IMG/VR virus record: IMGVR_UViG_3300000553_000030 | Span: 1-64,000 of that record | From: a virus | DNA: 64,000 nt | Strand: one strand, 5' to 3' | Shown here: positions 1,173 to 59,098 of the stretch, one piece after another | Position numbering within the stretch: position 1 is the stretch's first letter | How the letters are laid out: each line of letters opens with the position of its first letter | Program-made: the position numbers and the translations under genes | Notes under the pieces: model-generated | Seen by the model: only the letters and a program-made list of their open reading frames with translations | Told to the model about the DNA's origin: nothing | Databases searched by the model: none

Positions 1173-1826
1173 TTAGTCCTCTCTTCGTTTATAAATTGTA
1201 TATCCACCACATTCGGGTGTATTAGTAATACAATCAGAGCACAAAGTTTTATACCAATCATAATTACCACGAACACAAAGATTTCCAGGTTTGCCACAAA
1301 CTTCACAAATTTTATATGACATTGCTGAAGCCATGCTAATCATTCCGTTTAATTCATCATTACTATAGTCTGGATATATGGTCAATTGTCCGAATTTCTC
1401 TTTAACTTGACCAAATTCCAACGGTTTAACATTTGGCTTAATATATGTTTCTTTAAACATTGGAAGCAATCCGCCGAGTTTTCTAAGAATCCTTGTTAAT
1501 GCCGGTAATTTATCATATTGGCCATCATAATATACATGACATCTATTTGGGTCTTCTTTAGCAATTTTATAACTAATATAAAATAAACAATTATTAATTT
1601 TAACGATTACCCAATTAATACTCTTTTTATACCACGGAGTAGCGTTAATATATTGAGGATTATCAATTCTAAACTGAATAGTAGAACACAATGTATCAAT
1701 TATTTGATACCACCCATCACCACACTCGAACAATCTAGCCATACAACTATCATGTATGGACAAATGTGCTTGTCTAAAAATATTGGGATATTTTTCCAAT
1801 AATTTCTTAGTATTTTCTTTATTCAT
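1173..1826 (-). CDS. Hypothetical protein with C-terminal zinc finger (217 aa)
   Basis: Near the C terminus it has CEVCGKPG and, after about 20 residues, CSDC, a likely treble-clef or zinc-ribbon site. The rest is mixed alpha/beta with no motif I recognise. Its start at 1826 overlaps by four bases (ATGA) the stop of the HNH endonuclease gene upstream, so the endonuclease cassette sits directly in front of it and probably feeds ribosomes into it. Confidence 0.6.
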   Translation of the reverse strand: MNKENTKKLLEKYPNIFRQAHLSIHDSCMARLFECGDGWYQIIDTLCSTIQFRIDNPQYINATPWYKKSINWVIVKINNCLFYISYKIAKEDPNRCHVYYDGQYDKLPALTRILRKLGGLLPMFKETYIKPNVKPLEFGQVKEKFGQLTIYPDYSNDELNGMISMASAMSYKICEVCGKPGNLCVRGNYDWYKTLCSDCITNTPECGGYTIYKRRED

Positions 1827-2590
1827 ATAATGATATTATCACGATTATTCTGTGATGTCAATAATTTTTTCCAATGATGTCTATTAAAATTTGTTTTTGG
1901 ATGACAACTACAACATAATGTTATTAAATTTTTAATTGTATTATTTAGTTTGTTATAATCAATATGGTGAATTACCAGATTTCTTTTAAATTTTTGCTTA
2001 GATTTATTTTCATCTATAAAGCATACTTGACACCTGTAATTATCTCTTGTTTTTATTATATTTTTTAGTGTGTTATTAAATTCTATAGAATATTCTCCAA
2101 AACTACTTCCACCATTCCAACAAGGGTTTCTTTCTCCCATTTTACTAACTTTTATTTTTTCTCGTGCCTCCGATTTTTTAGCGGGATTTGTTTTTGGATT
2201 TTTTAATCTAACCGAATTAGCTTTATTTAAACATTTTTTACACAATTCGCTCGTATAATATATTTTAGCATTGCAAAGTTTACATTTTCCAGTTTTGCGA
2301 TTTCCAGAGGTTTTCCCATCTTTAAAATTTGGATTGTTTATCCCAACATATTTGCCAAGTTTAACTATGCTTTGTTGTTTTTTACTTGTATCTGTATGGA
2401 ACTTTTTATAAAACCCATTTCTATCCCCAATGCTTGCACACCGTCTACAAAATGTTCCGGCCGGGTGAATCCATGTATCACAATCTTTACATTTCTTTTT
2501 ATATCCATATGTTCTTCCACTAATTCTAAATCGTTTTTCCTTTGTTTTTATAATATCTGGAAAGGTTGATTTTTCTAAATCTTTTTGCAT
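1823..2590 (-). CDS. HNH homing endonuclease with zinc fingers
   Basis: Two or three CxxC zinc-binding modules (CKDC...CRRC; CKLC...CKKC) precede a C-terminal HNH domain: YRCQVC, then VIHHIDYNKLNN, NLITLC and CCSCH, which supplies the His-Asn-His metal site and the structural Cys pairs. Such proteins make a site-specific double-strand break in endonuclease-free alleles so that the gene is copied by recombination. The frame is open upstream to 2686, but the DNA from 2672 to 2526 encodes the MGRK leader in another frame, so I place the start at the ATG at 2590. The last four bases overlap the next gene's start. Confidence 0.8.
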   Translation of the reverse strand: MQKDLEKSTFPDIIKTKEKRFRISGRTYGYKKKCKDCDTWIHPAGTFCRRCASIGDRNGFYKKFHTDTSKKQQSIVKLGKYVGINNPNFKDGKTSGNRKTGKCKLCNAKIYYTSELCKKCLNKANSVRLKNPKTNPAKKSEAREKIKVSKMGERNPCWNGGSSFGEYSIEFNNTLKNIIKTRDNYRCQVCFIDENKSKQKFKRNLVIHHIDYNKLNNTIKNLITLCCSCHPKTNFNRHHWKKLLTSQNNRDNIII

Positions 2591-2672
2591 TTTTCCAATA
2601 ATATCGCATTTGCCTATCACGGCGTTCTGCAATGAGTTCTTCAATTGGCCTGTTAAGTTTTTTTCTTCCCAT
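2526..2672 (-). CDS. MGRK-type basic leader ORF (48 aa) before the HNH endonuclease
   Basis: This ORF begins MGRKKLNRPIEEL and continues with a strongly basic helix containing RYYWKN and RYYKNKGK. Three other endonuclease cassettes in the window (32439-32597, 45663-45803, 58401-58562) start with an ORF sharing MGRK, EE and the RYYxKN pattern, which shows that this frame, and not the overlapping one, is the conserved coding frame. It overlaps the endonuclease by tens of bases in the +1 frame. A late-type box CTATTTATTA lies just upstream at 2691-2700. Role unknown; a DNA- or RNA-binding peptide that regulates or couples translation of the nuclease is my inference. Confidence 0.65.
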   Translation of the reverse strand: MGRKKLNRPIEELIAERRDRQMRYYWKNAKRFRKINLSRYYKNKGKTI

Positions 2673-2690
2673 AAATTTTTATTCATATAC

Positions 2691-2700
2691 TAATAAATAG
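2691..2700 (-). promoter_or_regulatory. CTATTTATTA box before HNH cassette
   Basis: The minus-strand sequence reads CTATTTATTAGTATATG. The same box, in the same orientation relative to the gene, precedes most endonuclease cassettes here, and I interpret it as the core of a phage-specific (late) promoter. Confidence 0.5.
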
Positions 2701-2753
2701 TATATAGAAAATTAAAAGTATAAAAAAATGTATGAAAATTTTGTTGTAATTCT

Positions 2754-14276: not shown

Positions 14277-15188
14277 ATGATAAACTGTAAAATATGCGGA
14301 CATGCTGTACAATATAGATTAATAGAACATTTGGTAAAAACACACAAAATGGATGTGGAAGAATATAAGTTAAAATATGGCCCGGTTATTAGTGCCGAAT
14401 ATCACGCCAAGGTTTCTAAAAAATCGAAAGAAATGTGGAAGGATGATGATTATAGAAATAAAACTAATATCGCAAGAAATGAATCATGGACAGATGAACT
14501 TAAAGATAAACAAAGTACTATCATAAAAAATGTATATAAAAATGGATTTAAATGTTGGAACGACGGATTAACTAAAGAGAATCATCCTAGTTTAGTATTA
14601 ATTGGAGAAAAAAACAAAAAAAATCTAACCGGAAGAACCAAAGAAGAATATCCATATCTAGAAAATAAGTCTAAATTAATGACAGCAAGGCTTAATGAAT
14701 ATTGGGAGGAAGCTGGTTTGTTTAGAAAATATTTTTCTAACAAGGAAAATTTTGATAATTGGAGAGATAAAATATCAAAAACAATATCTGCTAAATGCAG
14801 GAGTGGAGAAATAAAATGTATATCTGGTCATTTTAAAACCGGCTATTATAACGGAACATTTTATCAAAGTGGATTAGAATTGGAAACAATGAAATTATTA
14901 GATTCTATTAATGATGTTAAAAAATGGGAAAGAAATTTTGATGCCGTAGATTATATTGATGTTAAAGGAAAAACTCGTAGATATTTACCCGACTTTAAAA
15001 TTACATTAAATGATGATGATGTCGTTGTATTAGAAATGAAAGGGTTTCCTGACAAATATCTACAAGAAAAAATTACATACGCAAAGAAAAAATATAAGCA
15101 TTATATGGTTTGTTATACTATAGAAGAAGCCAAGGAAAAGTTATATGAAATTATCAACAATAAAAAACATAACCAAATCAAAAAATAA
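14277..15188 (+). CDS. Putative homing endonuclease within the dUTPase split intein
   Basis: The N terminus is a CxxC...H...H zinc finger (CKICGHAVQYRLIEHLVKTH), a DNA-binding module. The C-terminal part has RYLPDFK and, after a short loop, VVLEMKG, the PD...ExK motif of restriction-type nucleases. It differs from the Vsr-like nucleases of the other inteins. It overlaps the dUTPase C-part by 44 bases, and its codons provide GGAAAAG ahead of the start at 15145. Confidence 0.8.
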   Translation: MINCKICGHAVQYRLIEHLVKTHKMDVEEYKLKYGPVISAEYHAKVSKKSKEMWKDDDYRNKTNIARNESWTDELKDKQSTIIKNVYKNGFKCWNDGLTKENHPSLVLIGEKNKKNLTGRTKEEYPYLENKSKLMTARLNEYWEEAGLFRKYFSNKENFDNWRDKISKTISAKCRSGEIKCISGHFKTGYYNGTFYQSGLELETMKLLDSINDVKKWERNFDAVDYIDVKGKTRRYLPDFKITLNDDDVVVLEMKGFPDKYLQEKITYAKKKYKHYMVCYTIEEAKEKLYEIINNKKHNQIKK

Positions 15189-15504
15189 AGTATATGATAT
15201 TACCGTAGAAAATAATCATAATTTTTTCTGTAATGGTCACTTGCTACATAATTGTGATTACCGTGGTGAAATTATGGTGGCTTTAATCAACTTAGGTCAA
15301 GAGCCAGTTACTATTAATAAAGGCGACAAGATAGCACAGATCATATTTGAATACTTTGCTTCTGTGTCATTCTCCGAAACCAAGGAATTAACCAATACAC
15401 AGAGAAATGATGGTGGTTTTGGATCTACTGATAAAATAAACAGACAAAACAGCGATTTAGGTGTATCATTAGAAGACATCAACAAAGATTTGTCAATAAA
15501 GTAA
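15145..15504 (+). CDS. dut: Split-intein C-half fused to dUTPase C-terminal fragment
   Basis: Residues 1-36 are an intein C-half with block F (VYDITVENNHNFFCNG) and block G ending LLHN. Cys37 is the first extein residue, then DYRGEIMVALIN (rest of motif 3), KIAQIIFEY (motif 4) and RNDGGFGSTD (motif 5, which closes over the substrate). A tail of about 25 residues follows. Trans-splicing with the product of 13710-14219 would restore a full dUTPase. Confidence 0.88.
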   Translation: MKLSTIKNITKSKNKVYDITVENNHNFFCNGHLLHNCDYRGEIMVALINLGQEPVTINKGDKIAQIIFEYFASVSFSETKELTNTQRNDGGFGSTDKINRQNSDLGVSLEDINKDLSIK

Positions 15505-15567: not shown

Positions 15568-15708
15568 ATGAAATCTAAACGAAACGTTGTTAATATTAAT
15601 GAAGCAGTATATAATAAACTTAAAGATTATTGTAAGAAAAATGGTCTTAAAATTGTATGGGTCATAGAAAAATTAATTACGGAATTTACGAATAAAAATG
15701 AAAATTAA
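15568..15708 (+). CDS. Ribbon-helix-helix leader protein of cassette 2 (46 aa)
   Basis: Strand RNVVNIN, helix A (VYNKLKDYCKKNG) and helix B (IVWVIEKLITEF) match the RHH family of the other cassettes. The stop overlaps the endonuclease start (15698) by 11 bases, in the +1 frame. Likely DNA-binding and probably regulatory. Confidence 0.72.
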   Translation: MKSKRNVVNINEAVYNKLKDYCKKNGLKIVWVIEKLITEFTNKNEN

Positions 15709-16594
15709 ACGAAATTGCAAAACTTGTAGTAAGGAATTTTATACCATCGAAAGCAAAATAAAAGCTGGTAAAGGATTGTATTGTTGCAAGCAATGTTATA
15801 CGGATTATAAAAATTTAAATGGTATAAAAAACTTAATAACCGATCATTGTATTATTTGTGGTAAAGGGATTCACTTAACTGAATATTTAAGAGAAATTGG
15901 AAGAAAATGTTGTTCTAGAAAATGTTCTGGGATATTACAGACACGGAGAAACACCAGAACCACATCGTGTAAATTTTGTAAAAAAGAATTAAAGACAAAG
16001 ATATCGGAAATTAAAATTTTTTGTAATTGGGAGTGTCGTAGAGATTTTCTGGATGCTTCTAAGACAACATATATATGCGAATGTTGCAATAAATCGTTTA
16101 GAGCAAACAAAAGAGAACGACGAAATAATAGAAAACATTATTTTTGTTCAAATACTTGTAAATTTACATGGCATAATGGAAAGCCACACCCCGCGATGTC
16201 TGAGTGGTTAGCGGAAAATATATCTAATGGAAATTTCATACCAAGGCATCAATCATATTACATTCAAGGATATTTATTGAATACGTCTACAGATAAAAAA
16301 GAGTGGTATTCAAGTTCATATGAAAAGGAAAGAATGTTACAATTAAATTCTCAAAATATTAAGTGGACAAAAAATCACGGAATAAAAATTCCATATGTAG
16401 ATGTAAACGGAAGAAATCATTATTATATTCCGGATATATTGGTAGGGGACAAAATTTTGGAAGAGATTAAACCAGTTAGATTAATACATTTGGATAATAA
16501 TCCAGAAAAATTTTTTGCCGCAAAAAAATATTGTTCAAAAAACAATTTAACATTTAAAATAATTACAGAAAAGGAATTGGGTATAAAATTATGA
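15698..16594 (+). CDS. Free-standing putative homing endonuclease, multi-zinc-finger type
   Basis: At least four Cys4-type fingers lie in tandem (CKTC...CCKQC; CIIC...CCSRKC; CKFC...CNWEC; CECC...CSNTC). The C-terminal nuclease has YYIPDIL and EEIKP, a PD...ExK core. Unlike the other RHH-linked nucleases it lacks the HG-finger repeats, so RHH leaders pair with more than one nuclease type. The stop overlaps the next gene's ATG (ATGA). Confidence 0.78.
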   Translation: MKIKRNCKTCSKEFYTIESKIKAGKGLYCCKQCYTDYKNLNGIKNLITDHCIICGKGIHLTEYLREIGRKCCSRKCSGILQTRRNTRTTSCKFCKKELKTKISEIKIFCNWECRRDFLDASKTTYICECCNKSFRANKRERRNNRKHYFCSNTCKFTWHNGKPHPAMSEWLAENISNGNFIPRHQSYYIQGYLLNTSTDKKEWYSSSYEKERMLQLNSQNIKWTKNHGIKIPYVDVNGRNHYYIPDILVGDKILEEIKPVRLIHLDNNPEKFFAAKKYCSKNNLTFKIITEKELGIKL

Positions 16595-27975: not shown

Positions 27976-28149
27976 ATGAAAAACATAAAAATATCAGACG
28001 GAACACATACAATGTTAAAAGAATATTGCAAACAAAAATCTCTTAAAATAAGCAATTGGGTAGATGGTGTATTAAATTACATTGTTACAAACAACACCAA
28101 AAATGAAAAGGAGAAGGAATGCCCAAATATACAACCAAAAAATTTATAA
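27976..28149 (+). CDS. Ribbon-helix-helix leader protein of cassette 4 (57 aa)
   Basis: Strand KNIKIS, helix A (THTMLKEYCKQKS) and helix B (ISNWVDGVLNYIV) give the clearest RHH pattern of the set. The endonuclease start at 28119 lies 31 bases inside its 3' end, behind GGAGAAGGA encoded by the RHH codons. Confidence 0.76.
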   Translation: MKNIKISDGTHTMLKEYCKQKSLKISNWVDGVLNYIVTNNTKNEKEKECPNIQPKNL

Positions 28150-29246
28150 AAAAATCAAAATTAATTCATCAACTGAGATATGATTATTCTCATGTAAACT
28201 ATGTTAATAGTCAATTGATGGTAAAAATAATTTGTCCAAAACACGGTAGTTTTTTACAAACACCGAACAACCACTTGGCGGGCCATGGATGCGCCAAATG
28301 TGGGTGGAAAATTCCTAGAAAACTTAAAACTCTCGGAATAGATGAATTTATACGAAAGTCAAAATTAATTCATAAAAACAAATATTTGTATGATAAATTT
28401 ATTTATATCAACGCGCACACTAAAGGAATACTTCAATGCCGACTTCATGGGAAATTTTTGCAATCCCCAAATAACCATTTGAGCGGGAAGGGCTGTTACC
28501 GTTGTAGAAAATCGCGGCCAACATTTACAACGGAAGATTTTATAAAAAAAGCAAGCCAGTGTCACAAAAATAAATATGATTACACAAAAACAAAATACAT
28601 TAATTACAAACACAAAGTAATTATTAGTTGTCCAATTCATGGGGAGTTTTTACAAACACCATCCGGACATTTAAATGGAAGAGGATGTTTGAAATGTTTT
28701 TGTTCTCGAAGAACATTTACCATAGACGAATTTAAAGAAAGGGCAAAAATTGTTCATAACTCAAAATATGACTATTCCAAAATATTTTACATAAACACAA
28801 CAACACATATTAGTATAATATGCCCAATTCATGGAATTTTCAGTCAAACGCCAAACAAACATCTGTCTGGTAGGGGGTGTAAGAAATGTGGTAGAGAGAA
28901 CATGAGAACAGGCTCGGTATCAAAAGCAGAAACCGCGTTTCTTGATTATATGAAAATTGAGAAACACAACAGAAATAAATATATAAACGGTTATTATGTT
29001 GATGGTATAAAAAACAACACAATTTACGAGTTCCTTGGAGATTATTGGCACGGCAACCCCAACAAATTTAATCACAAAAAATTAAATAAATCTGTAAAAA
29101 TAACATTTGGAAGTTTGTATGAAAAAACATTCAAAAGACTTAATGAATTAAAAAAAGGCAATTTTACCGTAAAATACATATGGGAATCAGATTGGTATAG
29201 GTTTGTTAAAAATCCCGATTCAAAACTAAAAATATTGGAATTATAA
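28119..29246 (+). CDS. Homing endonuclease, four HG-finger repeats plus Vsr-like domain
   Basis: Four tandem modules each contain IHxxKYDYSxxxY and CPxHGxFxQTPxxHLxGxGCxKC. A linker with SKAETAFLDYM leads to IYEFLGDYWHGNP and YIWESDW, the EDxHD core. With 375 residues it is the longest of this type here. It lies after the glycan operon and before a membrane protein, so no broken host gene is evident. Its stop overlaps the next ATG by one base. Confidence 0.85.
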   Translation: MPKYTTKKFIKKSKLIHQLRYDYSHVNYVNSQLMVKIICPKHGSFLQTPNNHLAGHGCAKCGWKIPRKLKTLGIDEFIRKSKLIHKNKYLYDKFIYINAHTKGILQCRLHGKFLQSPNNHLSGKGCYRCRKSRPTFTTEDFIKKASQCHKNKYDYTKTKYINYKHKVIISCPIHGEFLQTPSGHLNGRGCLKCFCSRRTFTIDEFKERAKIVHNSKYDYSKIFYINTTTHISIICPIHGIFSQTPNKHLSGRGCKKCGRENMRTGSVSKAETAFLDYMKIEKHNRNKYINGYYVDGIKNNTIYEFLGDYWHGNPNKFNHKKLNKSVKITFGSLYEKTFKRLNELKKGNFTVKYIWESDWYRFVKNPDSKLKILEL

Positions 29247-31039: not shown

Positions 31040-31644
31040 AGTTTATCCATTGCTGATTTAACGATATCACGAAGTTTTTCATCTTTCAACATTGCCATAT
31101 AACTGTCACCATTATATGTTTGCCACTCAACTGCTACATCCGCATTTCTCTTTACAATTGGGTCATTAAATGTTTCATGTTCGTTTGCTGGTTCTGTGAA
31201 AATCCTGGTGATTCCTTTTAAGTCATATTTAGATACATGAATTAATTTACCACCCATAACAGTTTTAATCCATTCCACTTCATCACAAGGATAAATTGAA
31301 TAACGGATATCAGTAATAATATTAACATTTGCATCACTCTTATCCAAATCCTCTTTAAGCTTGGAAGTCCAATATTTACCTTCCGATTGTTTCCTTTTAA
31401 CATCACCATACCATACTAAAAATTCCCTAAATATGTTCTTTTCTTCGGTTTTCTCTGTCCAAATACTAAGTCCTAAATTTTTTTGAACAAACTCCTCACA
31501 ATCTTTTTTTAATTGATATGCTAACGCAAATGTTTTAGTAGATATCCCCCTCTCTTTGTAAATATCACACATTATATCCGCAAACGAATTTTTTCCACTG
31601 CGAGCAACCCCGCTAATGCCTATATATTTTTTAGTTGTTATCAT
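31036..31644 (-). CDS. Deoxynucleoside monophosphate kinase-like P-loop protein
   Basis: GISGVARSGKNSFAD is a P-loop (GxxxxGKN-S) typical of phage dNMP kinases (T4 gp1/T5 type), with IITDIRYSIYPCDEVEW as the D-x-R motif further on. It would phosphorylate dNMPs for phage DNA synthesis. The start at 31644 lies inside the 3' end of the GIY-YIG endonuclease gene, whose codons supply GGAAAG as ribosome binding site; an ATG at 31671 would lack one. Confidence 0.75.
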   Translation of the reverse strand: MITTKKYIGISGVARSGKNSFADIMCDIYKERGISTKTFALAYQLKKDCEEFVQKNLGLSIWTEKTEEKNIFREFLVWYGDVKRKQSEGKYWTSKLKEDLDKSDANVNIITDIRYSIYPCDEVEWIKTVMGGKLIHVSKYDLKGITRIFTEPANEHETFNDPIVKRNADVAVEWQTYNGDSYMAMLKDEKLRDIVKSAMDKL

Positions 31645-32617
31645 ATATTCTTTCCAATTTCCAACCAACACTATTTTTGTTATATCGAATCATACCGATT
31701 GTTATTTTAGTGTTATGTTTTTTGTTATAATCATCTATAAATTCTCTAAGTATTTTCCCACCTTTAATATTAATACTTTTCCCATCATATGTCAACTTAT
31801 ATAAAACTCTGTGTTGGTCGGCGATTTTTTCAATTACTTCGGGTGGATGAGATTTACCGTAAAATGGATTATTTTCTCCGTTAAAATTCGCATGATTATC
31901 TTTTAAACTCTTTCTCCATATATCAAAATCCATCCAATCCTTGTTATACATGTAATGAGTTTTACCTTTATTTTTATCACTGGTTTTTCTAGTATTACTA
32001 ATATTTTGTTTCCATTCTTCAGTCTTAACAATTCTAGACAACCGTTTCTTTCGTTCTTTTGTTAGTGTTATTCCTCTAACATACTTGTCTATCATTAATG
32101 CGTGGTTAATTCTAAGTTTTTTAAGTATTTCTTCTTTATTAGGATTATTGGTTAAATTATCCCCGCCTTCTCCACCGTGGCCGATATTACATAAGTTTGG
32201 ATTTATTAGTCTAATATCAGTTATTTCTTTGATTTCTCGTTTATATGCAGATGTTTCGTCTACATTTTCTAATATTTTTTTATATATGACGTTTCCATTT
32301 CTATTTAAAATTTGTTTAATTTTATTAAACAAGTGTCTATTATTATTGGGTATTTTATTCTTTTTTACCAGTTGTTCATGTTTATACATTCTCCTACCAA
32401 ACCCCTTTCCTACATAAAAAACAACGCCATTCATAGAATCAATTAGATGATAAACATAATATTTTTTTCTTTCTATAATAATAGTCGAGTCGTTCTTTAT
32501 TAAGTTTGATTTTGTTTTTTTCGTAATATCTTCTTTGCCTTTCCCTGTGTTGTTTAGCAAGTTCTTCTTTGGTTCTGTTAAGTTTTTTTCTTCCCATAAT
32601 GTTTCCATATCATTCAT
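31631..32617 (-). CDS. GIY-YIG homing endonuclease
   Basis: YYVYHLIDSMNGVVFYVGKGFGRRMYKHE is a GIY-YIG nuclease domain (Y-x-Y...Y-V-G, then the conserved Arg), followed by ExNxE-like VDETSAYKREIKEI. The C-terminal half carries repeats of NUMOD-like DNA-binding sequence (ENNPFYGKSHPPEVIEK). The ORF is open from 32617 with AGGAATAAA before its ATG, but 32439-32597 also encode an MGRK leader in another frame, and the true nuclease start may be internal. It sits just before the dNMP kinase gene. Confidence 0.82.
   Translation of the reverse strand: MNDMETLWEEKNLTEPKKNLLNNTGKGKEDITKKTKSNLIKNDSTIIIERKKYYVYHLIDSMNGVVFYVGKGFGRRMYKHEQLVKKNKIPNNNRHLFNKIKQILNRNGNVIYKKILENVDETSAYKREIKEITDIRLINPNLCNIGHGGEGGDNLTNNPNKEEILKKLRINHALMIDKYVRGITLTKERKKRLSRIVKTEEWKQNISNTRKTSDKNKGKTHYMYNKDWMDFDIWRKSLKDNHANFNGENNPFYGKSHPPEVIEKIADQHRVLYKLTYDGKSINIKGGKILREFIDDYNKKHNTKITIGMIRYNKNSVGWKLERIYDNN
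32439..32597 (-). CDS. MGRK-type basic leader ORF (52 aa) before the GIY-YIG endonuclease
   Basis: Starts MGRKKLNRTKEELAKQ, then RRYYEKNKIKLNKERL and YYYRKKK. The first 23 bases are the same as in the leader at 2526-2672 apart from the last base, and the protein pattern is shared with those at 45663 and 58401, where the alternative frame is not open. GGAAACATT before the ATG could serve as a ribosome binding site. Confidence 0.65.
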   Translation of the reverse strand: MGRKKLNRTKEELAKQHRERQRRYYEKNKIKLNKERLDYYYRKKKILCLSSN

Positions 32618-32672
32618 ATTTTATTCCTATACATATAAATATTAAGTCACGGAATAAAACGTCACGAAAATG

Positions 32673-41069: not shown

Positions 41070-42484
41070 ATTATATTTTCCTCTGTGTTGTTTAAAAGTT
41101 TGCCAAGTTCCAAGTCATAATGGAGACTTTACCGCCATTCCATATTTTCCTCTATAAATTTAATACATTTTTCTGTTGTTTGTTGTTTGTTCTGAAGATA
41201 TTCCTGTTCTTTTATTCTCAATAATGAATATCCATTTCTAATTAAAAATTTATCCTTTATTTTGTCTCGTTTTTTTGCGTGTGTAAACGAATGCCAGTAT
41301 TCTCCGTCAAATTCTATTATTACATTTCCACACTTAAAGTCAACAAAAATAATTTTTTGAGGTTCGGTATCCATATAAAATTTTTGTTCTTCATTTAATG
41401 TGAAATATTTGGTTTCTTTCTTATAATCACTTGATAAGTCTTTATAAATATCATCAAATAATTGTTGTGATATTTTACTATACGGATTTCCTTTTCTACA
41501 ATTACTAATCATATTATCAATGTGTTGATAATATTTTTTTATACCTTTATTTTTTCCAAATCGTTTTACAAATCCTTCTAATGATAATGTATGTTTTCGT
41601 TTTTCTATTTTATTTTTCCACAATTTATATCCGTTTTTTATTCCATGTCTATCTTGAAATTCTTCTAGTGTTTGTCCATTTTTTCTATTTCCAAGTTGTG
41701 TAGTTTTATCCATACTATTTTTCCATTTAGAATAATATTCATTCCACCTTTTTGCGCCTTCTTCTTTGCCATATTTTTCAATATAACCATCCAATCCAAG
41801 ATTGCTTTTCTTCTTATTACACAACTCTTTCCATTCTTTTTTGGTATAATCTTCTTTTTTTGTCTTTACCTTTTCAGCTCTTTCATTAAATAATATTTTA
41901 GCAACATTTTCTCCATATTTAATGGTTAATGCATCCAAAGAAAATCCATCTCTTTTAAATTTATCACCACCATTAAGTCGTTCTATCCAATTACCATCAA
42001 CATTATACTTCATCATATTTTGAATGACTTCTTTTCTATTATTCAAAATATATCGTTTGTCAAATACATTAATGATGTTTTTTATTTGTTCTAGGGAATG
42101 TTCATTTAGAGTATTAACAAAATTTTTAAATGGTTTTTGATTCAAAAACTGTTCAATATTATTAAAATTTTTATTCATATACTATAAATATATGGAAAGC
42201 ATCCCAAAGTGTCATTTTTTTACAAATAATTTATCCCCAATGGATAATCCCGATTCGATGCTCCTCAATTTTCCATATTGTGTTGGAAATCTATGTTTTA
42301 TCGAACATTCAATGTATTTACCACTCTTCAACTTTATTCTATAAACCGGCTGTTTTTCAACAGGAAATATGAAAGACACTGTTTTATATCCGTCGATAGT
42401 CAATATTTTGTCACCAATCTTTAAATTTGACACCTCTATTTTCCCTCTAACCTCTTCATCTACAACGGTTTGTAAAGAAAAACA
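40929..42484 (-). mobile_element. Split intein plus endonuclease inserted at the gp41-8 site of the helicase
   Basis: IntN (42215-42484) is 90 residues beginning CFSLQT with block B SIKH; IntC (40929-41069) is 47 residues. An EDxHD endonuclease gene (41129-42178) lies between. The fragment lengths and sequence style fit the gp41-8/gp41-1 class of split inteins. Confidence 0.88.
41129..42178 (-). CDS. Vsr-like homing endonuclease within the gp41-8-type split intein
   Basis: A long N-terminal basic region with repeated LNRHGxxxGYKLWKxK-like units (e.g. FQDRHGIKNGYKLWKNK; FVKRFGKNKGIKK) probably reads the target site. The nuclease core is VIIEFDGEYWHSF with RDKIKDKFLIRNGYSLLRIKE, i.e. the E, D, W-H of EDxHD enzymes. 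ATATTTATAGTAT precedes the ATG at 42178. Confidence 0.82.
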   Translation of the reverse strand: MNKNFNNIEQFLNQKPFKNFVNTLNEHSLEQIKNIINVFDKRYILNNRKEVIQNMMKYNVDGNWIERLNGGDKFKRDGFSLDALTIKYGENVAKILFNERAEKVKTKKEDYTKKEWKELCNKKKSNLGLDGYIEKYGKEEGAKRWNEYYSKWKNSMDKTTQLGNRKNGQTLEEFQDRHGIKNGYKLWKNKIEKRKHTLSLEGFVKRFGKNKGIKKYYQHIDNMISNCRKGNPYSKISQQLFDDIYKDLSSDYKKETKYFTLNEEQKFYMDTEPQKIIFVDFKCGNVIIEFDGEYWHSFTHAKKRDKIKDKFLIRNGYSLLRIKEQEYLQNKQQTTEKCIKFIEENMEWR

Positions 42485-43327
42485 CCTGTTACTTTGTGAT
42501 GCTGTCCAAATCGGTATTTGCAGTTCTCCTGCTACGCCACGAAGTTCTTCGTAAATTCCTCCTGCCTCTTGATAACTATTACTATTTTTATCTGATGTGG
42601 ATGGTCTCAGAATATCAGCGTAATCAACAATAATCATATCAACTTTAGTGCCCAGCATCATTACTCGTTCAGCATGAGCCTTAATTGATAGTGGTGATAT
42701 GGTTTTGATTGGATAATATTTGATAATCAATTTCCCAGAGATTTCAGAAATCTTGGCCTTGACGATATCAATGTTTTTTCTAATTTGTTGAAAATCAATT
42801 CCTGTAAAACACGCATCATATCTCAACCCAACATAATTTTCATTTAGTTCCAGTGTATAATGAATTACATTCTTGCCCTGTCTAAGTGCCTCGGCACCAA
42901 TTCGTGACAAAACCCAGGAATTATGTGATAAAATTCCATTACTATAATAACAATGAACATCTTCTACGGAAATGTCATATAGAACCTCCAGTTTTCCCAT
43001 TCGTTTGGACACGAGTTTCGTATTGCCACATTCAGTTTCAATCAATTCATTTTTCTTTATATCCTCTACATATTTCCACTGGCCATTCACTTTTAACCGA
43101 TGTTTTCCCGACGTTTTAAGTGTCTTATTATTTCCAAAATAACTTGTCACGGATTTTTGATTTTCCGTTCTAAATACTGTTACTATGTTTTTATATCCAT
43201 ATGGAGTCTTCACTTTTACTGGAAATTGTAGTTGTTTAGTGGCATGCGCTTTATCATCAACTAATAATCTGTCAAACAAATCCTTCATTTTTATTTTTTC
43301 ATTTATAACCCTAATTAATTTTTTCAT
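42212..43327 (-). CDS. gp41-like helicase middle fragment between two split-intein halves
   Basis: Residues 1-136 are the C-half of intein 1 (block B SGKH near 73-76, block F YDISVEDVHCYYSNG, end LSHN). Extein residues 137-281 start SWVLSRIGAEALRQ, just after the Walker A lysine, and include MIIVDYADIL (Walker B) and WTASQSNR. Residues 282-371 are the N-half of intein 2 starting CFSLQT. Both splicing events are needed to make a helicase. The start at 43327 lies inside the endonuclease gene, whose Lys-Glu codons form AAGGA. Confidence 0.9.
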   Translation of the reverse strand: MKKLIRVINEKIKMKDLFDRLLVDDKAHATKQLQFPVKVKTPYGYKNIVTVFRTENQKSVTSYFGNNKTLKTSGKHRLKVNGQWKYVEDIKKNELIETECGNTKLVSKRMGKLEVLYDISVEDVHCYYSNGILSHNSWVLSRIGAEALRQGKNVIHYTLELNENYVGLRYDACFTGIDFQQIRKNIDIVKAKISEISGKLIIKYYPIKTISPLSIKAHAERVMMLGTKVDMIIVDYADILRPSTSDKNSNSYQEAGGIYEELRGVAGELQIPIWTASQSNRCFSLQTVVDEEVRGKIEVSNLKIGDKILTIDGYKTVSFIFPVEKQPVYRIKLKSGKYIECSIKHRFPTQYGKLRSIESGLSIGDKLFVKK

Positions 43328-44282
43328 AATATTCCTTTATAATCTTTATACATTCTTCGTTATTTTTTTTCCAATCTTCTTCCCAAATCACTAACACATT
43401 ATATCCGACAGACTTCAAATATTCAATGCGTTTTTTGTCATACTCCCAAAGCTCTTTTGCGGTTTTGTTAATATTAAATGACTTTATTAAATCGGCTTCT
43501 TCATAGAATTTCGGATTTGCGTGCCAAAAATCACCATAAAATTCAATAATATAATTTTTGTATAATATATCCACCACATATCTATCTATTGGGACATTAG
43601 CCTGAATATCATTATTAATATTTTCCTTAATATACAAATAAAATTCCTTTTCTATTTTGGAATTTCCATTGAATTCTCCGAAGTGTCTCACCCACTTTCC
43701 GATTCCAATATTCGCAATTTTTTTCTTCATTGAATTTGAAATTTTCACCTTTTGTTCATCGGTTCGCGTCTTTCCTAAATATTTGGTTGACCTAGCCGAT
43801 AGTTTAGATTGCAAATTTCGTATTTCTTCAATGGCCGCGTCTTCTGACATTCCCTTTCTAATCATCCAATATTCTTTTTTAAAACATGAATTTTCAGGCT
43901 TTATTTTTGATACAGATTTCCTCGCGTTTTCTTTTTGTATATCTGTTACTTTGGCTTTGGCGGCTTCTTCTGTCATGCCATTTTGCATCCAATATTGATA
44001 TCGATATATAGAAAATTCTTTCTTTTGTTTCATATACATAAATAGTATCCAATAATCATAAAAAGTCAATTTTTTATGTTATTTTTCCACAACCACTGAT
44101 TTTTTATATTTTTCAATTTCAAAAAAAACATTTTCAACTTGCCATCCAAATAATTCTTTATCATCAATTTTATAAATTTCAAACGGATTAATCCATAAAA
44201 TATAAGGATTGCCAGAATTTCCGACGATTTCTATACCAAATTCATGATATTGAATTTCAATTTCCGTGTTTGGACCAACACA
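42920..44282 (-). mobile_element. Split intein plus endonuclease inserted in the helicase Walker A motif
   Basis: IntN (44082-44282, 67 residues, CVGPNTEIEIQ...) follows AGAGK; IntC (42920-43327, 136 residues) ends LSHN before SW. The block B histidine is in IntC and not IntN, so the break is early, as in atypical split inteins. A Vsr-like endonuclease gene (43311-44033) lies between. Confidence 0.85.
43311..44033 (-). CDS. Vsr-like homing endonuclease within the Walker A split intein of the helicase
   Basis: The N-terminal half has two YWMxxGMxEEAAxxxxxxxQ repeats, probably DNA-binding. The nuclease core is IIEFYGDFWHANPKFY with VLVIWEEDW. I start at the ATG at 44033 (MKQKKEFSIYRY), which follows a CTATTTATG box; the frame is open further. 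The last codons contain AAGGA used by the next gene. Confidence 0.83.
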   Translation of the reverse strand: MKQKKEFSIYRYQYWMQNGMTEEAAKAKVTDIQKENARKSVSKIKPENSCFKKEYWMIRKGMSEDAAIEEIRNLQSKLSARSTKYLGKTRTDEQKVKISNSMKKKIANIGIGKWVRHFGEFNGNSKIEKEFYLYIKENINNDIQANVPIDRYVVDILYKNYIIEFYGDFWHANPKFYEEADLIKSFNINKTAKELWEYDKKRIEYLKSVGYNVLVIWEEDWKKNNEECIKIIKEYYEKIN

Positions 44283-44897
44283 TTTTCCTGCTCCGGCACA
44301 AGCAGTAACAATTCCCAATTCTCCGGGTGCCAATCCACCATCCATTGCAACATCAATCACTGGCCAATTTGTTTTAATTGTATTACGGGCCATTACGCTC
44401 ATCCGTTTATCAACATCAATGATATAATCATGCCCAACATTTCTTTCCATACCAGCTTTCAAAGCATTATCAACACGGACCTTAATTTTTTCATACTCAC
44501 CACTTTTCAGATGTTCAACACTATCAACAATTGCACTTTTCAGTGTCTGATTTTTACAAAATTCCAAAAATTCATTTTTTATAAAGGTAATATCAGAATC
44601 AGATATTTTCTGGTATACCTGCCGCAATTGATCTACAATAGATGCCCTCAATATTTCCGACTGAAGCTCTCCTGTCTTTATCTTGAATACTTGTGGCGTG
44701 GGAATATCCTTATATTGATTGAAGTATGTAATGATTACATTTACAATCCATTTATGAGCATCACTTTCCCAATAATCTTCTTTTATAATATCATAAATTC
44801 TTTCCAAAAATGTCTTTTCACCTAATAGACATGAAATGCTCTTTACTTGAAAATCTGTTCCGAATTTGGTCAACGTGTCATTGTTATTGTTATTCAT
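44079..44897 (-). CDS. gp41-like helicase N-terminal fragment with intein N-half
   Basis: Residues 1-205 form the N-terminal domain and the start of the RecA core of a DnaB/gp41 replicative helicase, ending in the Walker A AGAGK. Cys206 starts the intein N-half (67 residues). The ATPase site is therefore complete only after protein trans-splicing. A possible promoter (TTGAAC, 17 bp, TAACAT) and AGGAATAC lie upstream. Confidence 0.85.
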   Translation of the reverse strand: MNNNNNDTLTKFGTDFQVKSISCLLGEKTFLERIYDIIKEDYWESDAHKWIVNVIITYFNQYKDIPTPQVFKIKTGELQSEILRASIVDQLRQVYQKISDSDITFIKNEFLEFCKNQTLKSAIVDSVEHLKSGEYEKIKVRVDNALKAGMERNVGHDYIIDVDKRMSVMARNTIKTNWPVIDVAMDGGLAPGELGIVTACAGAGKCVGPNTEIEIQYHEFGIEIVGNSGNPYILWINPFEIYKIDDKELFGWQVENVFFEIEKYKKSVVVEK

Positions 44898-45017: not shown

Positions 45018-45682
45018 TTATTTTTTGTGTCGGTGTTCGTATATAATATCTACCAACTTAAAAAACTCCGATTCTTGAAAATTAGATTTCAATGAATTTA
45101 TATCCTTATGAATCCATTGCACGTTTTCTTCTGTATATCCAATGGATGAATCTATTCTATCTAATGAAGCTGTTGTGGGAGTGCCTAGATATTTATTACC
45201 AAAAAATATTTCCCATCCACTAATAACACATCTTTTATTCTGTTTTAAAAACAGTTTCCATAAAAATTCCTGCGACACATCATATACAATACCTCTGCGC
45301 TTGGCATTATTTCTCAACTGTCCAAAATATGAACCGGGGATGTCACCACATTTTGTTCTCCGTTTGCACCCACAAGATACGGCATCATTTTGTAACAATG
45401 GTGTTTTGTAAAATTTCGTGTGTTTCCACATTCACATCTACATATCCAACATGTTCCTCTATTTTTGTTTTCTGTTCTACCCAATACAATCAATTTTCCG
45501 AATTTTTTACCAATAAATTTTTTAGTTTCTAAGTCAACAATTTCCCGCTTAGTTCTAGTTTTAATATTGTATAACCTAAACAACTTTGATATTTTCCCTA
45601 GATGTGTATTATTTTCAGATGCAATTTCCTTTAATGTCTTCGCCATTGAAAAATATTGGTTTTCAAGATACTCTTTTGTCAT
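45018..45682 (-). pseudogene. Frameshifted HNH-type homing endonuclease
   Basis: The N-terminal part (ATG at 45682, MTKEYLENQYF) has a small helix-turn-helix-like region and GKKFGKLIVLG with CRCECGNTRNF, the start of a zinc-binding HNH family common in phages. After about residue 95 the frame shifts; the rest (KFYKTPLLQNDAVSCGCKRR, then KRCVISG, LDRIDSSIGYTEENVQWIH) continues in the 45018-45431 frame. A single indel near 45420 would join them. GGAAAGG precedes the start. Preceded by an MGRK leader. Confidence 0.7.
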
Positions 45683-45803
45683 AATACCTTTCCATTCGTT
45701 TTTTTCTAATAATGTCTCCGTTTTTTGTATAATATCGTTTTTGTCGTTTTTTTCTAGCATATATTTGTTCCTCTTTAGTTGTGTATAACAGTTTTCTTCC
45801 CAT
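45663..45803 (-). CDS. MGRK-type basic leader ORF (46 aa) before the broken HNH endonuclease
   Basis: MGRKLLYTTKEEQIYARKK followed by RYYTKNGDIIRKKRMERYY. AAAGGAT lies upstream of the ATG at 45803. Its last codons overlap the endonuclease start at 45682 in the +1 frame. Confidence 0.68.
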   Translation of the reverse strand: MGRKLLYTTKEEQIYARKKRQKRYYTKNGDIIRKKRMERYYDKRVS

Positions 45804-45876
45804 AGTATTATTGTATCCTTTGTTATATAAGTAGTTACATAAAAGTAGAAACATTAAATTTAAATTAATATATTAT

Positions 45877-50573: not shown

Positions 50574-51386
50574 ATATTTATCTCCAAACATCATTGCATT
50601 CAAATTAACACGCAATTGATTTGTATAAACAATCAGTACCTTTTGACGGCCAATCATATTAGTAATCTTACGCATTGCTTTACTAATAATAATAGCTTTT
50701 CCAGTTGCATAACCATCCTTACCATGTTCACTTTCTTGCTCGGCCTTTGTGGATGCACCGGCCACTGAATCGACTACAATCGTAACCAATGAATCAGAAT
50801 TATTTTTTCTAATGTATGCAATAGCAGATTCCATCACTTCAAAGATTTCTTCAACAGTTTCTCGTTGAATATATAGCAATGATGATAAATTGACACCAAG
50901 ACTCTTCCAAAATTCAGGAGCAGCAGAATTTTCAGTATCAATAACAATGGCTTTACCACCCTTACGTTGTGTTTCAGCACAAATATGCGCGGCAATCAAT
51001 GATTTGCCGGTATTGTGATTAAGCATACCATTGCCAAAATAACAATGTTCGTTATCCTTAACTGTAATATCTACGATTCGTTCTTTTCCAATATAATCAA
51101 TAGATGTTATCTGATAATACTTCTTATCTTCACAATAAACTTTTGTTTGTGCCGGAATAATTTCTTTTGTTTCTAACCATCCCAAATTAGTAAAAAATTT
51201 ATGTTCTTTGCTAACTTTTATAGAATTTCCATTTTCTAATGTAACCTTATATGTATCCAATAACCCCTTGTCAACAAAATCTGTTATTTCTGTGAATATA
51301 TCACCTTTGGTTAATACTTTAACCCGTTTTCCTTCAAACATTAAGTTTAAAACTTCACCAATTGTTATTTCTTTTATTTCTGTCAT
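50526..51386 (-). CDS. recA: RecA middle fragment between two split-intein halves
   Basis: Residues 1-125 are the C-half of intein 1 (block B SKEH about 59-62, ending LNHN). Extein residues 126-271 start TGKSLIAAH, completing the Walker A motif, and include IVIDTENSAAPEFW, TIVVDSVAGA (Walker B) and VLIVYTNQLRVNLNAMMFG. Residues 272-286 are a 15-residue intein N-fragment and then a stop. AAAAGGA before the ATG is part of the upstream endonuclease gene. Confidence 0.92.
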   Translation of the reverse strand: MTEIKEITIGEVLNLMFEGKRVKVLTKGDIFTEITDFVDKGLLDTYKVTLENGNSIKVSKEHKFFTNLGWLETKEIIPAQTKVYCEDKKYYQITSIDYIGKERIVDITVKDNEHCYFGNGMLNHNTGKSLIAAHICAETQRKGGKAIVIDTENSAAPEFWKSLGVNLSSLLYIQRETVEEIFEVMESAIAYIRKNNSDSLVTIVVDSVAGASTKAEQESEHGKDGYATGKAIIISKAMRKITNMIGRQKVLIVYTNQLRVNLNAMMFGDKYCVDPFTTKIKIRYKV

Positions 51387-52465
51387 TTTATGTTCCTTTT
51401 TAGTTTGTCGTGATTTTTATCATCAATTGTGATAATTTTTTTATTTATAAAATTTTCAATATATTCTAAATTATACTTTGATATGTCAAACGTATTTTCT
51501 GTTATATACTTACAAGTTAAATTATACTCTTTACAATATTCTTTCAGTGCATTATACTTTAACACATTTTCATCAGTAGTCAACAATTTATATGGTTTTA
51601 TTTCACAAATTTCGATGCCATTTATTACAATATCGGGACAATATGTTCTATGAATATTCTTCATTTTATATTTTATTCTATGTTTGGATGGGGCAAATTT
51701 AATATTATTTTCCATTAAATATAAAAATATTTTAAGTTCTAATGTTGATCTACAAAAATATATATTTCCCACGCGATTGATATGACATTTTACTCCTATT
51801 CCAGCTTCTTTTCCGGGAGATTTTCCGTACATTGGATTTAACTTTCCAGTTTGTGGATTGTCTTTTGGATAACCATATCGTTCACATAATTGTTTACATT
51901 TTTTTTCACCAAACCCAAATTCTTTTTTAAGTTGTTTGTATACCATTTCTTTATAAATTAATCTGAATTTTAATTCTTCAAATCGTTTAATTATTTCAGG
52001 TGTTATTGGTTTTAATTCTTTATTTTTTAATGTTAATGCTGACAATTTTCCGTTTACTCGTGCAAGTTTGGCTTTCTTTTTTTTACCATTCTCTACAGCA
52101 ATATCATACAATCCAACAAAAATCAAATAATTGTTAACCTGTTTAATCGGTATATTTATCAATTTCCAAACATCATATGTTGTATAACCTTCATTTTGTA
52201 TGCCGTTTCTTATTTTTTCACCAAAAGTATCGTGAACATTTAAATTTTGAAAATAATGACGGTTATCAACATCTTGTTTTGATTTATTAGATTTATACAA
52301 TTGATTATTTTCTTTTAATTTATTATATACACCATTGGCCTTTGCTATTCTATGTATCGGTTTTATCCCAATCAACATGCTATTTGCAATGTCTACCTGT
52401 CCCATTCCACAATTTATAAAATTAATCAATTTTTGCTCATCTACTATTGTTTTTTTCATATACAT
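51383..52465 (-). CDS. Putative homing endonuclease within the first recA split intein
   Basis: The C-terminal nuclease has TYCPDIVI and EICEIKP, a PD...ExK core unlike the Vsr-type nucleases of the neighbouring intein. The N-terminal two thirds include several helix-turn-helix-like segments (MGQVDIANSMLIG; YTTYDVWKLINIPIKQV). ATG at 52465 or 52459; CTATTTATA lies at 52492-52500. Overlaps the RecA middle fragment by four bases. Confidence 0.78.
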   Translation of the reverse strand: MYMKKTIVDEQKLINFINCGMGQVDIANSMLIGIKPIHRIAKANGVYNKLKENNQLYKSNKSKQDVDNRHYFQNLNVHDTFGEKIRNGIQNEGYTTYDVWKLINIPIKQVNNYLIFVGLYDIAVENGKKKKAKLARVNGKLSALTLKNKELKPITPEIIKRFEELKFRLIYKEMVYKQLKKEFGFGEKKCKQLCERYGYPKDNPQTGKLNPMYGKSPGKEAGIGVKCHINRVGNIYFCRSTLELKIFLYLMENNIKFAPSKHRIKYKMKNIHRTYCPDIVINGIEICEIKPYKLLTTDENVLKYNALKEYCKEYNLTCKYITENTFDISKYNLEYIENFINKKIITIDDKNHDKLKRNIK

Positions 52466-52505: not shown

Positions 52506-52823
52506 TTATTCAATAATAACTTTAATTTTTGTGTCTTCGGTGACACAGCCTTCCAAACCATTTAATTCAACCATACGACCCACAGGCAAACCGCCATGCG
52601 GCTTATTACTAATTGCCAAATCCAATAATGCATTTCCTGTTGATACCCAATCTGTTATAGTAGAGGGATCGTCTTGTTCATCCAAGAAATATGCCATTTT
52701 TCCACCATCTTTATTTGATTTATTTAATACATCGGCCAAGTCAGATAACAATTCATCCTTGGTATCTGGTTTTACGTCAACATTTATATTTTCTGTGATA
52801 TTTTCGCATTTCTTTTTAGCCAT
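52506..52823 (-). CDS. recA: RecA N-terminal fragment with 13-residue intein N-half
   Basis: Residues 1-92 contain VSTGNALLDLAISNKPHGGLPVGR and VELNGLEG, the standard RecA start of the core up to the P-loop. Cys93 begins a 13-residue intein fragment and the gene ends. Its partner is the 125-residue C-half in 50526-51386. RecA pairs homologous DNA for recombination-dependent replication, which is also the process homing uses. Confidence 0.9.
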   Translation of the reverse strand: MAKKKCENITENINVDVKPDTKDELLSDLADVLNKSNKDGGKMAYFLDEQDDPSTITDWVSTGNALLDLAISNKPHGGLPVGRMVELNGLEGCVTEDTKIKVIIE

Positions 52824-58247: not shown

Positions 58248-58388
58248 GGCCAGCATTAACAAAAATATCATTATAATTCGATGTAAATCATGTCATGATA
58301 GTTTTTTCCGGCATAACACTTAATAGGAAACTGGTCTTTAATCATTATCTGCTTAATTAATAAAATTGTCGTTTACAGTTTATCGTTT

Positions 58389-58398
58389 ATATTTATTA
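58389..58398 (+). promoter_or_regulatory. ATATTTATTA box of the decayed plus-strand cassette
   Basis: Two bases before the ATG of the MGRK leader, preceded by spaced GTTTA units (GTTTACAGTTTATCGTTTAT). Confidence 0.45.
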
Positions 58399-58400
58399 AC

Positions 58401-58562
58401 ATGGGAAGAAAACAAATATATAAAACGTATGAACAATTGCTTGCGGTTAATAAGCTTCGCGCAAATGAATATTATGCAAAAAATAAAGACGTTGTAAATA
58501 AGAAGCGACGAGAACGATATAAACAATTAAAGAATCAGTCGAGGTTGATTATCAATGAGTAG
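58401..58562 (+). CDS. MGRK-type basic leader ORF (53 aa) of decayed cassette
   Basis: MGRKQIYKTYEQLLAVNK, then YYAKNKDVVNKKRRERYKQ, a strongly basic helix. Its stop TAG overlaps the endonuclease start at 58555 by eight bases (ATGAGTAG), the same kind of join as in RHH cassettes. Confidence 0.68.
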   Translation: MGRKQIYKTYEQLLAVNKLRANEYYAKNKDVVNKKRRERYKQLKNQSRLIINE

Positions 58563-59098
58563 AAAATGGGATACTGAAAAATTTATTAAATTTGCTGATT
58601 CTATTAGGGGAAACGAATATAATTATAACAAATTTATTTATAAAAACAGTTATACTAAAGGGATAATCATACATAGAACGTGCGGGAATGAATTTTTACA
58701 AAGTCCAAATGCTCATATAAGTAAAAAATATGGTTGTCCAGTTTGTGGAGGGACGTTTAAATCTAATACTGTTAATTTTATAAATAATGCAAAAAATATA
58801 CACCAAAATAAATATGATTATTCAAAATTCGTGTATATTAACAATTCGACCATATGATTCTAAAGCCAATACAATCTATGAATTTCTAGGAGATTACTGG
58901 CATGGAAACCCAGTCAAATATGACAAAAACAATACAAACGAAAAATGTAAAAAAACATTTGGAGAATTGTATAAAAACACCTTTATACGATTAAACAAAT
59001 TGAAAGACTCTGGATACGTAGTTAAATATATTTGGGAATATGATTGGATTCTATTTAAGAACAAACTAGACAACTGTCCGAAAATTATAAATCTATGA
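58555..59098 (+). pseudogene. Decayed HG-finger / Vsr-like homing endonuclease
   Basis: One complete HG-finger repeat (EFLQSPNAHISKKYGCPVCGG) and the start of a second (IHQNKYDYSKFVYIN) are followed by a frame change near 58840 and directly by IYEFLGDYWHGNPVKYD and YIWEYDW, the end of the nuclease. The rest of repeat 2, its Cys-His knuckle and the linker are missing, so a deletion with frameshift has occurred. Its 3' end overlaps the polymerase-like gene on the other strand by 14 bases. Confidence 0.75.

Follow-up and report, generated by a model that had tools for sequence, protein, structure and literature searches.

A short overlapping leader protein as a candidate DNA-binding controller of mobile phage endonuclease genes

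In a 64,000-nucleotide stretch of viral DNA (positions 1 to 64,000 of IMG/VR record IMGVR_UViG_3300000553_000030, referred to below as the window), a short reading frame that begins with MGRK overlaps the start of a GIY-YIG endonuclease gene in a different frame. The locus raises two questions, namely which of the two frames is translated, and what a protein of about 50 residues would do in front of a nuclease. An earlier note made from the sequence alone had described four such frames in the window and had likened them to a portable module for control or DNA binding, able to accompany nucleases of any type. Leaders are named here by their lowest coordinate, and positions of all features are given in Table 1.

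The window leaders, their relatives and their mobility

All four MGRK reading frames were found where the earlier note had placed them, and each overlaps the start of an endonuclease in the +1 frame, the nucleases being of HNH (2526), GIY-YIG (32439), HNH/EndoVII-like (45663) and HG-finger (58401) type. When leader 32439 was used as a query against the whole 65.8-kb virus record, exactly these four leaders were recovered (E-values of 6e-24 to 9e-5). A gap-free alignment of 44 residues contains twelve invariant positions; the residues common to all four are MGRK, E11, R20, Y24, Y25, K27, N28, K34 and Y40. The HNH nuclease has an ATG 14 nt upstream of the ATG of leader 2526, and the GIY-YIG/NUMOD3 nuclease has one 20 nt upstream of that of leader 32439. 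These two nuclease frames run through the leader without a stop, as had been claimed; a third open one was found at 45663, but its ATG lies inside the leader.

Table 1. Positions of the leaders, the nuclease genes behind them and the putative promoter elements in the window
Feature	Positions	Strand	Basis or remark
MGRK leader, 48 aa	2526..2672	-	ORF and record search
HNH endonuclease, frame +1	1823..2686	-	PF01844 6e-5, phrog_8446 9e-17
Promoter block, TATTTAT and degenerate repeat TATAC/CTAT	2693..2724	-	before leader 2526; repeat alone not significant
MGRK leader, 52 aa, proposed DNA-binding controller	32439..32597	-	record search, family search, substitution test
GIY-YIG (LEM-3-like) and NUMOD3 endonuclease, frame +1	31631..32617	-	PF22945 2e-9, PF07460 5e-5
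TATTTAT, -10-like element	32635..32641	-	before leader 32439
Operator (putative), direct repeat CGTGAC-GTTTTATTC-CGTGAC, 15-nt spacing	32646..32666	-	before leader 32439
MGRK leader, 46 aa	45663..45803	-	ORF and record search
HNH/EndoVII-like endonuclease, N-terminal part, frame +1, ATG inside leader	45314..45760	-	
C-terminal (catalytic) EndoVII/HNH part of the preceding endonuclease, out of frame	45018..45431	-	phrog_3322 6e-27
Direct repeat CTAC..CTAC, 14-nt spacing, and TACTTAT	45827..45848	-	before leader 45663
MGRK leader, 53 aa, divergent	58401..58562	+	ORF and record search
HG-finger endonuclease, first part, ATG overlaps leader stop	58555..58857	+	phrog_681 3e-14
HG-finger endonuclease, C-terminal part, another frame	58787..59098	+	broken
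Direct repeat TCGTTTA..TCGTTTA, 14-nt spacing, and TATTTAT	58369..58396	+	misfits residue-word rule

Two of the four window nucleases (45018-45760 and 58555-59098) are broken by a frame change in the body of the gene, and their leaders are intact. Intact leaders before truncated or frame-broken nucleases were also seen at loci L033, L076 and L135, as in the decay phase of homing genes. Other nuclease-bearing genes occur in the window. A DnaB-type helicase extends over three ORFs at 42212-44897 (-), with an N part at 44079-44897, a DUF559-like nuclease ORF at 43311-44069, and an intein splicing motif followed by the helicase C domain at 42212-43327; this arrangement would be either a split intein or an intein whose nuclease is encoded in a frame of its own. 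A RecA N part (52506-52823, -) ends in an apparent intein start (GCVTEDTKIKV) and is followed by a nuclease-like ORF (51383-52465, -). A dUTPase with an intein (14277-15504, +; C-terminal splice motif HNC in 15145-15504) carries a TnsA-like nuclease ORF.

Relatives of the leaders were sought as the earlier note had suggested. An alignment of the four window leaders retrieved 80 loci from IMG/VR, to which further leaders were added by using a DNA pattern, a second alignment and a promoter-only pattern, giving about 95-100 distinct leaders in total, all from IMG/VR phages. A megablast search with a region of the window returned no relatives, two leader queries against INPHARED phages gave non-significant matches only, and no MGRK leader was found in GTDB genomes. 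The four window leaders are not due to chance, judging by the sequences, because 80 further viral loci carry the leader with synonymous-dominated change in its frame.

Nearly all leaders stop after 45-60 residues and a long ORF goes on in the +1 frame, the median ORF length past the leader being 220 aa in +1 versus 11 in +2. Among 90 such +1 ORFs, 46 matched Pfam GIY-YIG, 44 NUMOD3 and 49 the phrog_314 homing endonuclease; the remaining ones include HNH, EndoVII, Vsr and treble-clef types. The leader family as a whole precedes GIY-YIG, HNH, EndoVII-like, HG-finger and zinc-ribbon nucleases. A related GIY-YIG enzyme, gp595 of Bacillus phage G, begins right at the GIY region and has no leader. 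Natural fusions of leader and nuclease in frame 0 were found with HG-finger (L015/L016), zinc-ribbon (L029/L032) and YYxxN-repeat HNH (L088) enzymes, and L015 retains an operator of the form TATGAC..TATGAC; as far as sequences go, these fusions show that leader and nuclease can also form one chain.

Pfam and NCBIfam scans of 94 leaders gave no helix-turn-helix (HTH) family beyond one MerR_1 match at 0.0087 and no ribbon-helix-helix (RHH) family. No curated family covers the leader, and the best match among PDB sequences had an E-value of 0.27, so that no solved relative was identified there. Ten of the 94 leaders weakly matched phrog_17714 (best 1.6e-4). Several HNH nucleases carry N-terminal YYxxNK repeats resembling the leader helix (L013, L018, L019, L028, L061, L071), which suggests that the leader may be a single unit of that repeat.

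Empty sites were found for two cassettes (L078 and L053), in that the flanks are contiguous in related phages, which lack promoter, leader and nuclease all at once. The insert is about 795 nt long (gap -29 versus 766 and 14 versus 795), holds promoter, leader and nuclease only, with no methyltransferase, and adjoins the start codon of an opposite-strand gene. Judging from these sites, promoter, leader and nuclease are a unit that moves as one piece. Two marks of free-standing homing endonucleases were found, namely homing-type nucleases and presence or absence at intergenic sites (L078, L053). Since the operator lies inside the insert, it would not be the homing site. A search for relatives of the gene adjoining the 32439 cassette, made to look for an empty site, found none.

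Coding of the two overlapping frames

A codon-level comparison of both frames, also proposed in the earlier note, was carried out on 72 leader pairs that were 75-98.5% identical in DNA. Synonymous changes made up 54% of all changes in frame 0 (20% expected) and 15% in the +1 frame (17% expected). By this measure selection acts on the leader as a protein; the +1 frame is open, and its peptide is not selected. Relatives that conserve the other frame and not MGRK had been named as evidence against the leader, and the outcome was the opposite, with the leader frame conserved.

The leaders were then considered according to whether a +1 ATG lies between the -10-like element TATTTAT (see below) and the leader ATG. 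Where such an upstream ATG is present, a +1 stop occurs in 5 of 53 leaders versus 43.0 ± 2.7 expected from codon-randomised leaders, and in these five the ATG is only 5 nt upstream. Leaders that have no upstream +1 ATG contain an internal one after their last +1 stop in 28 of 29 cases, versus 14.5 ± 2.3 expected. All leaders contain a stop in the +2 frame. Codons for Leu6 also differ by class, being CTT or CTC with an upstream ATG and TTA or CTA, which create a +1 stop, with an internal ATG. In the window, leaders 2526 and 32439 belong to the upstream class and leaders 45663 and 58401 to the second.

It had been suggested that the open nuclease frame masks the leader and gives a false common N terminus (LWEEKNLT). 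That part of the earlier reading is not supported, given the avoidance of +1 stops and the internal ATGs. On these counts both frames are coding, and therefore the LWEEKNLT start is real, the nuclease would begin at its own ATG, and frameshifting is not needed. An early reading had been that programmed +1 ribosomal frameshifting, or slippage at the overlap, joins the leader to the nuclease as its N-terminal DNA-binding domain. Such joining would fit a nuclease frame that is always +1, the known frame-0 fusions of the same two parts, and the many GIY domains that start inside the overlap with no ATG nearby. However, almost every locus has a +1 ATG from which the frame stays open into the nuclease, no conserved site of slippage was seen, and the junction shifts in position from before residue 38 to past the leader stop; the avoidance of stops below an upstream ATG and the split in Leu6 codons match translation from that ATG. 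Frameshifting was made unnecessary by the start-codon and stop-avoidance tests, and we regard it as very unlikely. For the window copies, sequencing error at A-runs was weighed as a cause and rejected, since about 90 loci show the +1 relation.

The locus is a clear case of overprinting: one frame holds a small gene that is conserved, and the other an extension of the nuclease that is tolerated. Automatic annotation will keep one gene of such an overlap and lose the leader.

A repeated promoter word and the leader residues that track it

Most leaders are preceded by a block of the form (word)GTTTTAT..(word)....TATTTAT, in which a word of 4-6 bases is repeated 15 nt apart. One copy, in a -35-like position, precedes TATTTAT by about 18 nt, and the other is between that copy and TATTTAT, which itself is usually 4-6 nt before the first ATG. 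A Shine-Dalgarno sequence is seldom apparent before the leader (12 of 101). In a lag test anchored on TATTTAT alone, lags of 8 to 25 were tried; lag 15 alone showed clear within-locus repetition (3.49 of 5 versus 2.13 between loci; best of 20,000 permutations 2.57), with no comparable lag among the others. When viral contigs were scanned by using the promoter pattern and no leader sequence, 13 stretches were obtained, and the new ones all adjoin an MGR leader downstream.

A clear 15-nt repeat is missing from about a quarter of loci, and in some the copies are spaced 12 or 14 nt apart (L172/L173, L176 with a minus-strand leader, L078, L091 and L072); divergent leaders may bind with another geometry. 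Within the window, the operator is clear only at 32439-32597 and weak at the other three leaders. Residues E16, R17 and Q21 of leader 2526 would predict CTAC, and the repeat found there is degenerate. None of the window repeats is more than marginal by shuffling when considered alone (p 0.05-0.23), and so the case for an operator rests on the family.

Words vary between loci, even within one phage (CTAATG, CTCAC and CTAC in contig 3300011335_000809). Associations between 44 leader positions and the word were assessed position by position; permutation tests on related sequences, here and elsewhere, do not give exact probabilities. Positions 17 and 21 were the most strongly associated with word position 4, its most variable base (z 13.1 and 10.5), and residue 16 was associated with word position 6, the last base (z 5.0); weaker association was seen at leader positions 44, 23 and 9. 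If this segment is helical, residues 17 and 21 would lie one turn apart. The word locator made use of repeat similarity, which the lag test did not.

Several pairings recur. TGAC is found with Q17 and A or G at 21, and with T17 S21; TCAC with S17 S21 and with W17; TTAC with S17 M21; and TAAC or TAAT with N17. R17 Q21 goes with CTAC or CGAC, and K17 D21 with CGTC or CGAC. Leaders with Leu16 have a word that ends in T instead of C. Mixed words were found at Q17/S21 loci (L018 and L178). At loci found later with one of these residue pairs the word was as expected (TGAC for Q17/A21, twice, and for T17/S21, three times; CTAC for R17/Q21, once), and leave-one-out prediction from distant loci was correct in 35 of 46 cases versus 15 of 46.

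Related leaders share words and some loci are near duplicates, as would be seen if the correlation were a product of shared ancestry only and the repeat a sigma-factor element. When pairs were matched for relatedness in the rest of the leader, however, the word base was common to 83-90% of those sharing residues 17 and 21 versus 23-31% otherwise. In the most distant stratum, 5 of 7 pairs sharing both residues share the base, and below 55% identity it was shared in 57 of 70 same-residue pairs versus 312 of 1347 others. Together with the differing words of cassettes in one phage and the peak of the signal at positions 17 and 21, this makes an origin by ancestry alone very unlikely.

The protein that tracks the word could in principle be the nuclease, with the leader acting only as a translational attenuator. 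Autorepression of a late promoter by a homing endonuclease is established for I-TevI (PMC2988022), and a second start within an overlap is commonly seen in translational control. Against this, the partial correlation with the word was 0.41 for the leader (0 of 3000 permutations) and -0.02 for the nuclease; within GIY-YIG loci the terms were 0.58 and 0.13 (p 0.09), one GIY-YIG type occurs with many words, and sequence conservation like the leader's is not expected of attenuator peptides. We consider binding by the nuclease highly improbable. Two leader residues largely predict the word, and the leader looks like a portable on/off controller whose DNA code can be read.

Proposed control of the cassette and comparison with known systems

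Many nuclease classes, co-mobility and the covariation of residues 16, 17 and 21 with the word support the earlier proposal of a portable module. The MGRK leader is probably a stand-alone, sequence-specific DNA-binding autoregulator of about 50 residues, belonging to a mobile free-standing endonuclease cassette. We infer its fold, as well as binding, paired occupancy, the sign of control and the benefit, from the sequences. The leader would be made from frame 0, and the nuclease from its own +1 ATG, which lies inside the leader or up to about 50 nt before the leader ATG. Two leader molecules would contact the two words with one face of a helix (residues 16, 17, 20 and 21) and, once enough leader has been made, repress transcription of leader and nuclease. 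Such repression could keep a harmful nuclease in check once the cassette has arrived in a new phage genome, and different words could keep the cassettes of one phage from cross-control. With moderate confidence, we further propose a new family of very small DNA-binding proteins with a near-modular code (residues 16, 17 and 21 to a word of 4-6 bases), which overprints the 5' end of mobile nuclease genes and has diversified in a way that insulates the cassettes of one phage from each other. The natural pairs of leader and word would then supply, ready to use, the recognition code of a 50-residue protein.

Repression is favoured because the words interleave with promoter elements, and the leader most likely represses the cassette promoter. 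In the TGAC class the copy at the -35-like place resembles a -35 hexamer, and part of the repeat could serve RNA polymerase. In most words that copy departs from TTGACA, so a promoter in need of help is conceivable, and the controller (C) proteins of type II restriction-modification systems both activate and repress (PMC2997769); the leader might then be an activator, or an activator and later a repressor, that delays the nuclease as a C protein does. This alternative, which differs from repression in sign, is possible but rather unlikely, as both sites also lie where a bound protein would block RNA polymerase.

Two other small ORFs of the window stand in a similar place. The first (15568-15708, +) follows TATTTATTA, overlaps a TnsA-like nuclease (15698-16594) and matches ParG, a ribbon-helix-helix protein, at 5e-5. 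The second (27976-28149, +) also follows TATTTATTA and overlaps an HG-finger nuclease (28119-29246); it has a similar look and no Pfam match. They are probably the first leader family of the earlier note and a parallel controller system. The presence of an RHH leader in the same place before another nuclease supports the reading of the MGRK leader as a controller, and these phages may use small DNA-binding proteins of several kinds to control their nucleases.

No description of the MGRK leader was found in the open PMC literature, where absence is not proof. Over the N-terminal 40 positions of phrog_17714, where shown, the leader matches this longer protein of 129 aa. As with RHH autorepressors such as ParG, the leader would be a small DNA-binding autoregulator, but it matches no RHH family and its dual-coding +1 overlap is much longer. 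I-TevI, a phage homing endonuclease, represses its own promoter by binding an operator (PMC2988022). The MGRK cassettes likewise have, as in I-TevI and other T4 intron endonucleases, a homing-type nuclease with a putative operator in the promoter; whereas I-TevI itself binds, the MGRK operator is tracked by residues of a separate protein and not by the nuclease sequence.

The closest parallel in function may be that of the C proteins (C.PvuII and orthologues), small autoregulators whose gene overlaps or adjoins a nuclease gene, with sites in their own promoter, a transcript start at or very near the start codon, and natural regulator-nuclease fusions (PMC2997769, PMC3850674). The MGRK leader gene also overlaps the nuclease gene, has a repeated putative operator in its own promoter, would have a transcript that begins at or close to its start codon, and occurs in natural fusions. 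Unlike C proteins, the leader has no HTH match and about 50 aa, its direct repeats stand at 15 nt, and most or all of it overlaps the nuclease frame; the cassettes have no methyltransferase, carry homing-type nucleases and are phage-borne. A dedicated, transferable controller for free-standing phage nucleases is a role known from C proteins and unreported for homing endonucleases in the open papers searched. By this analogy, the MGRK leader would work like the C proteins while being unrelated to them by sequence.
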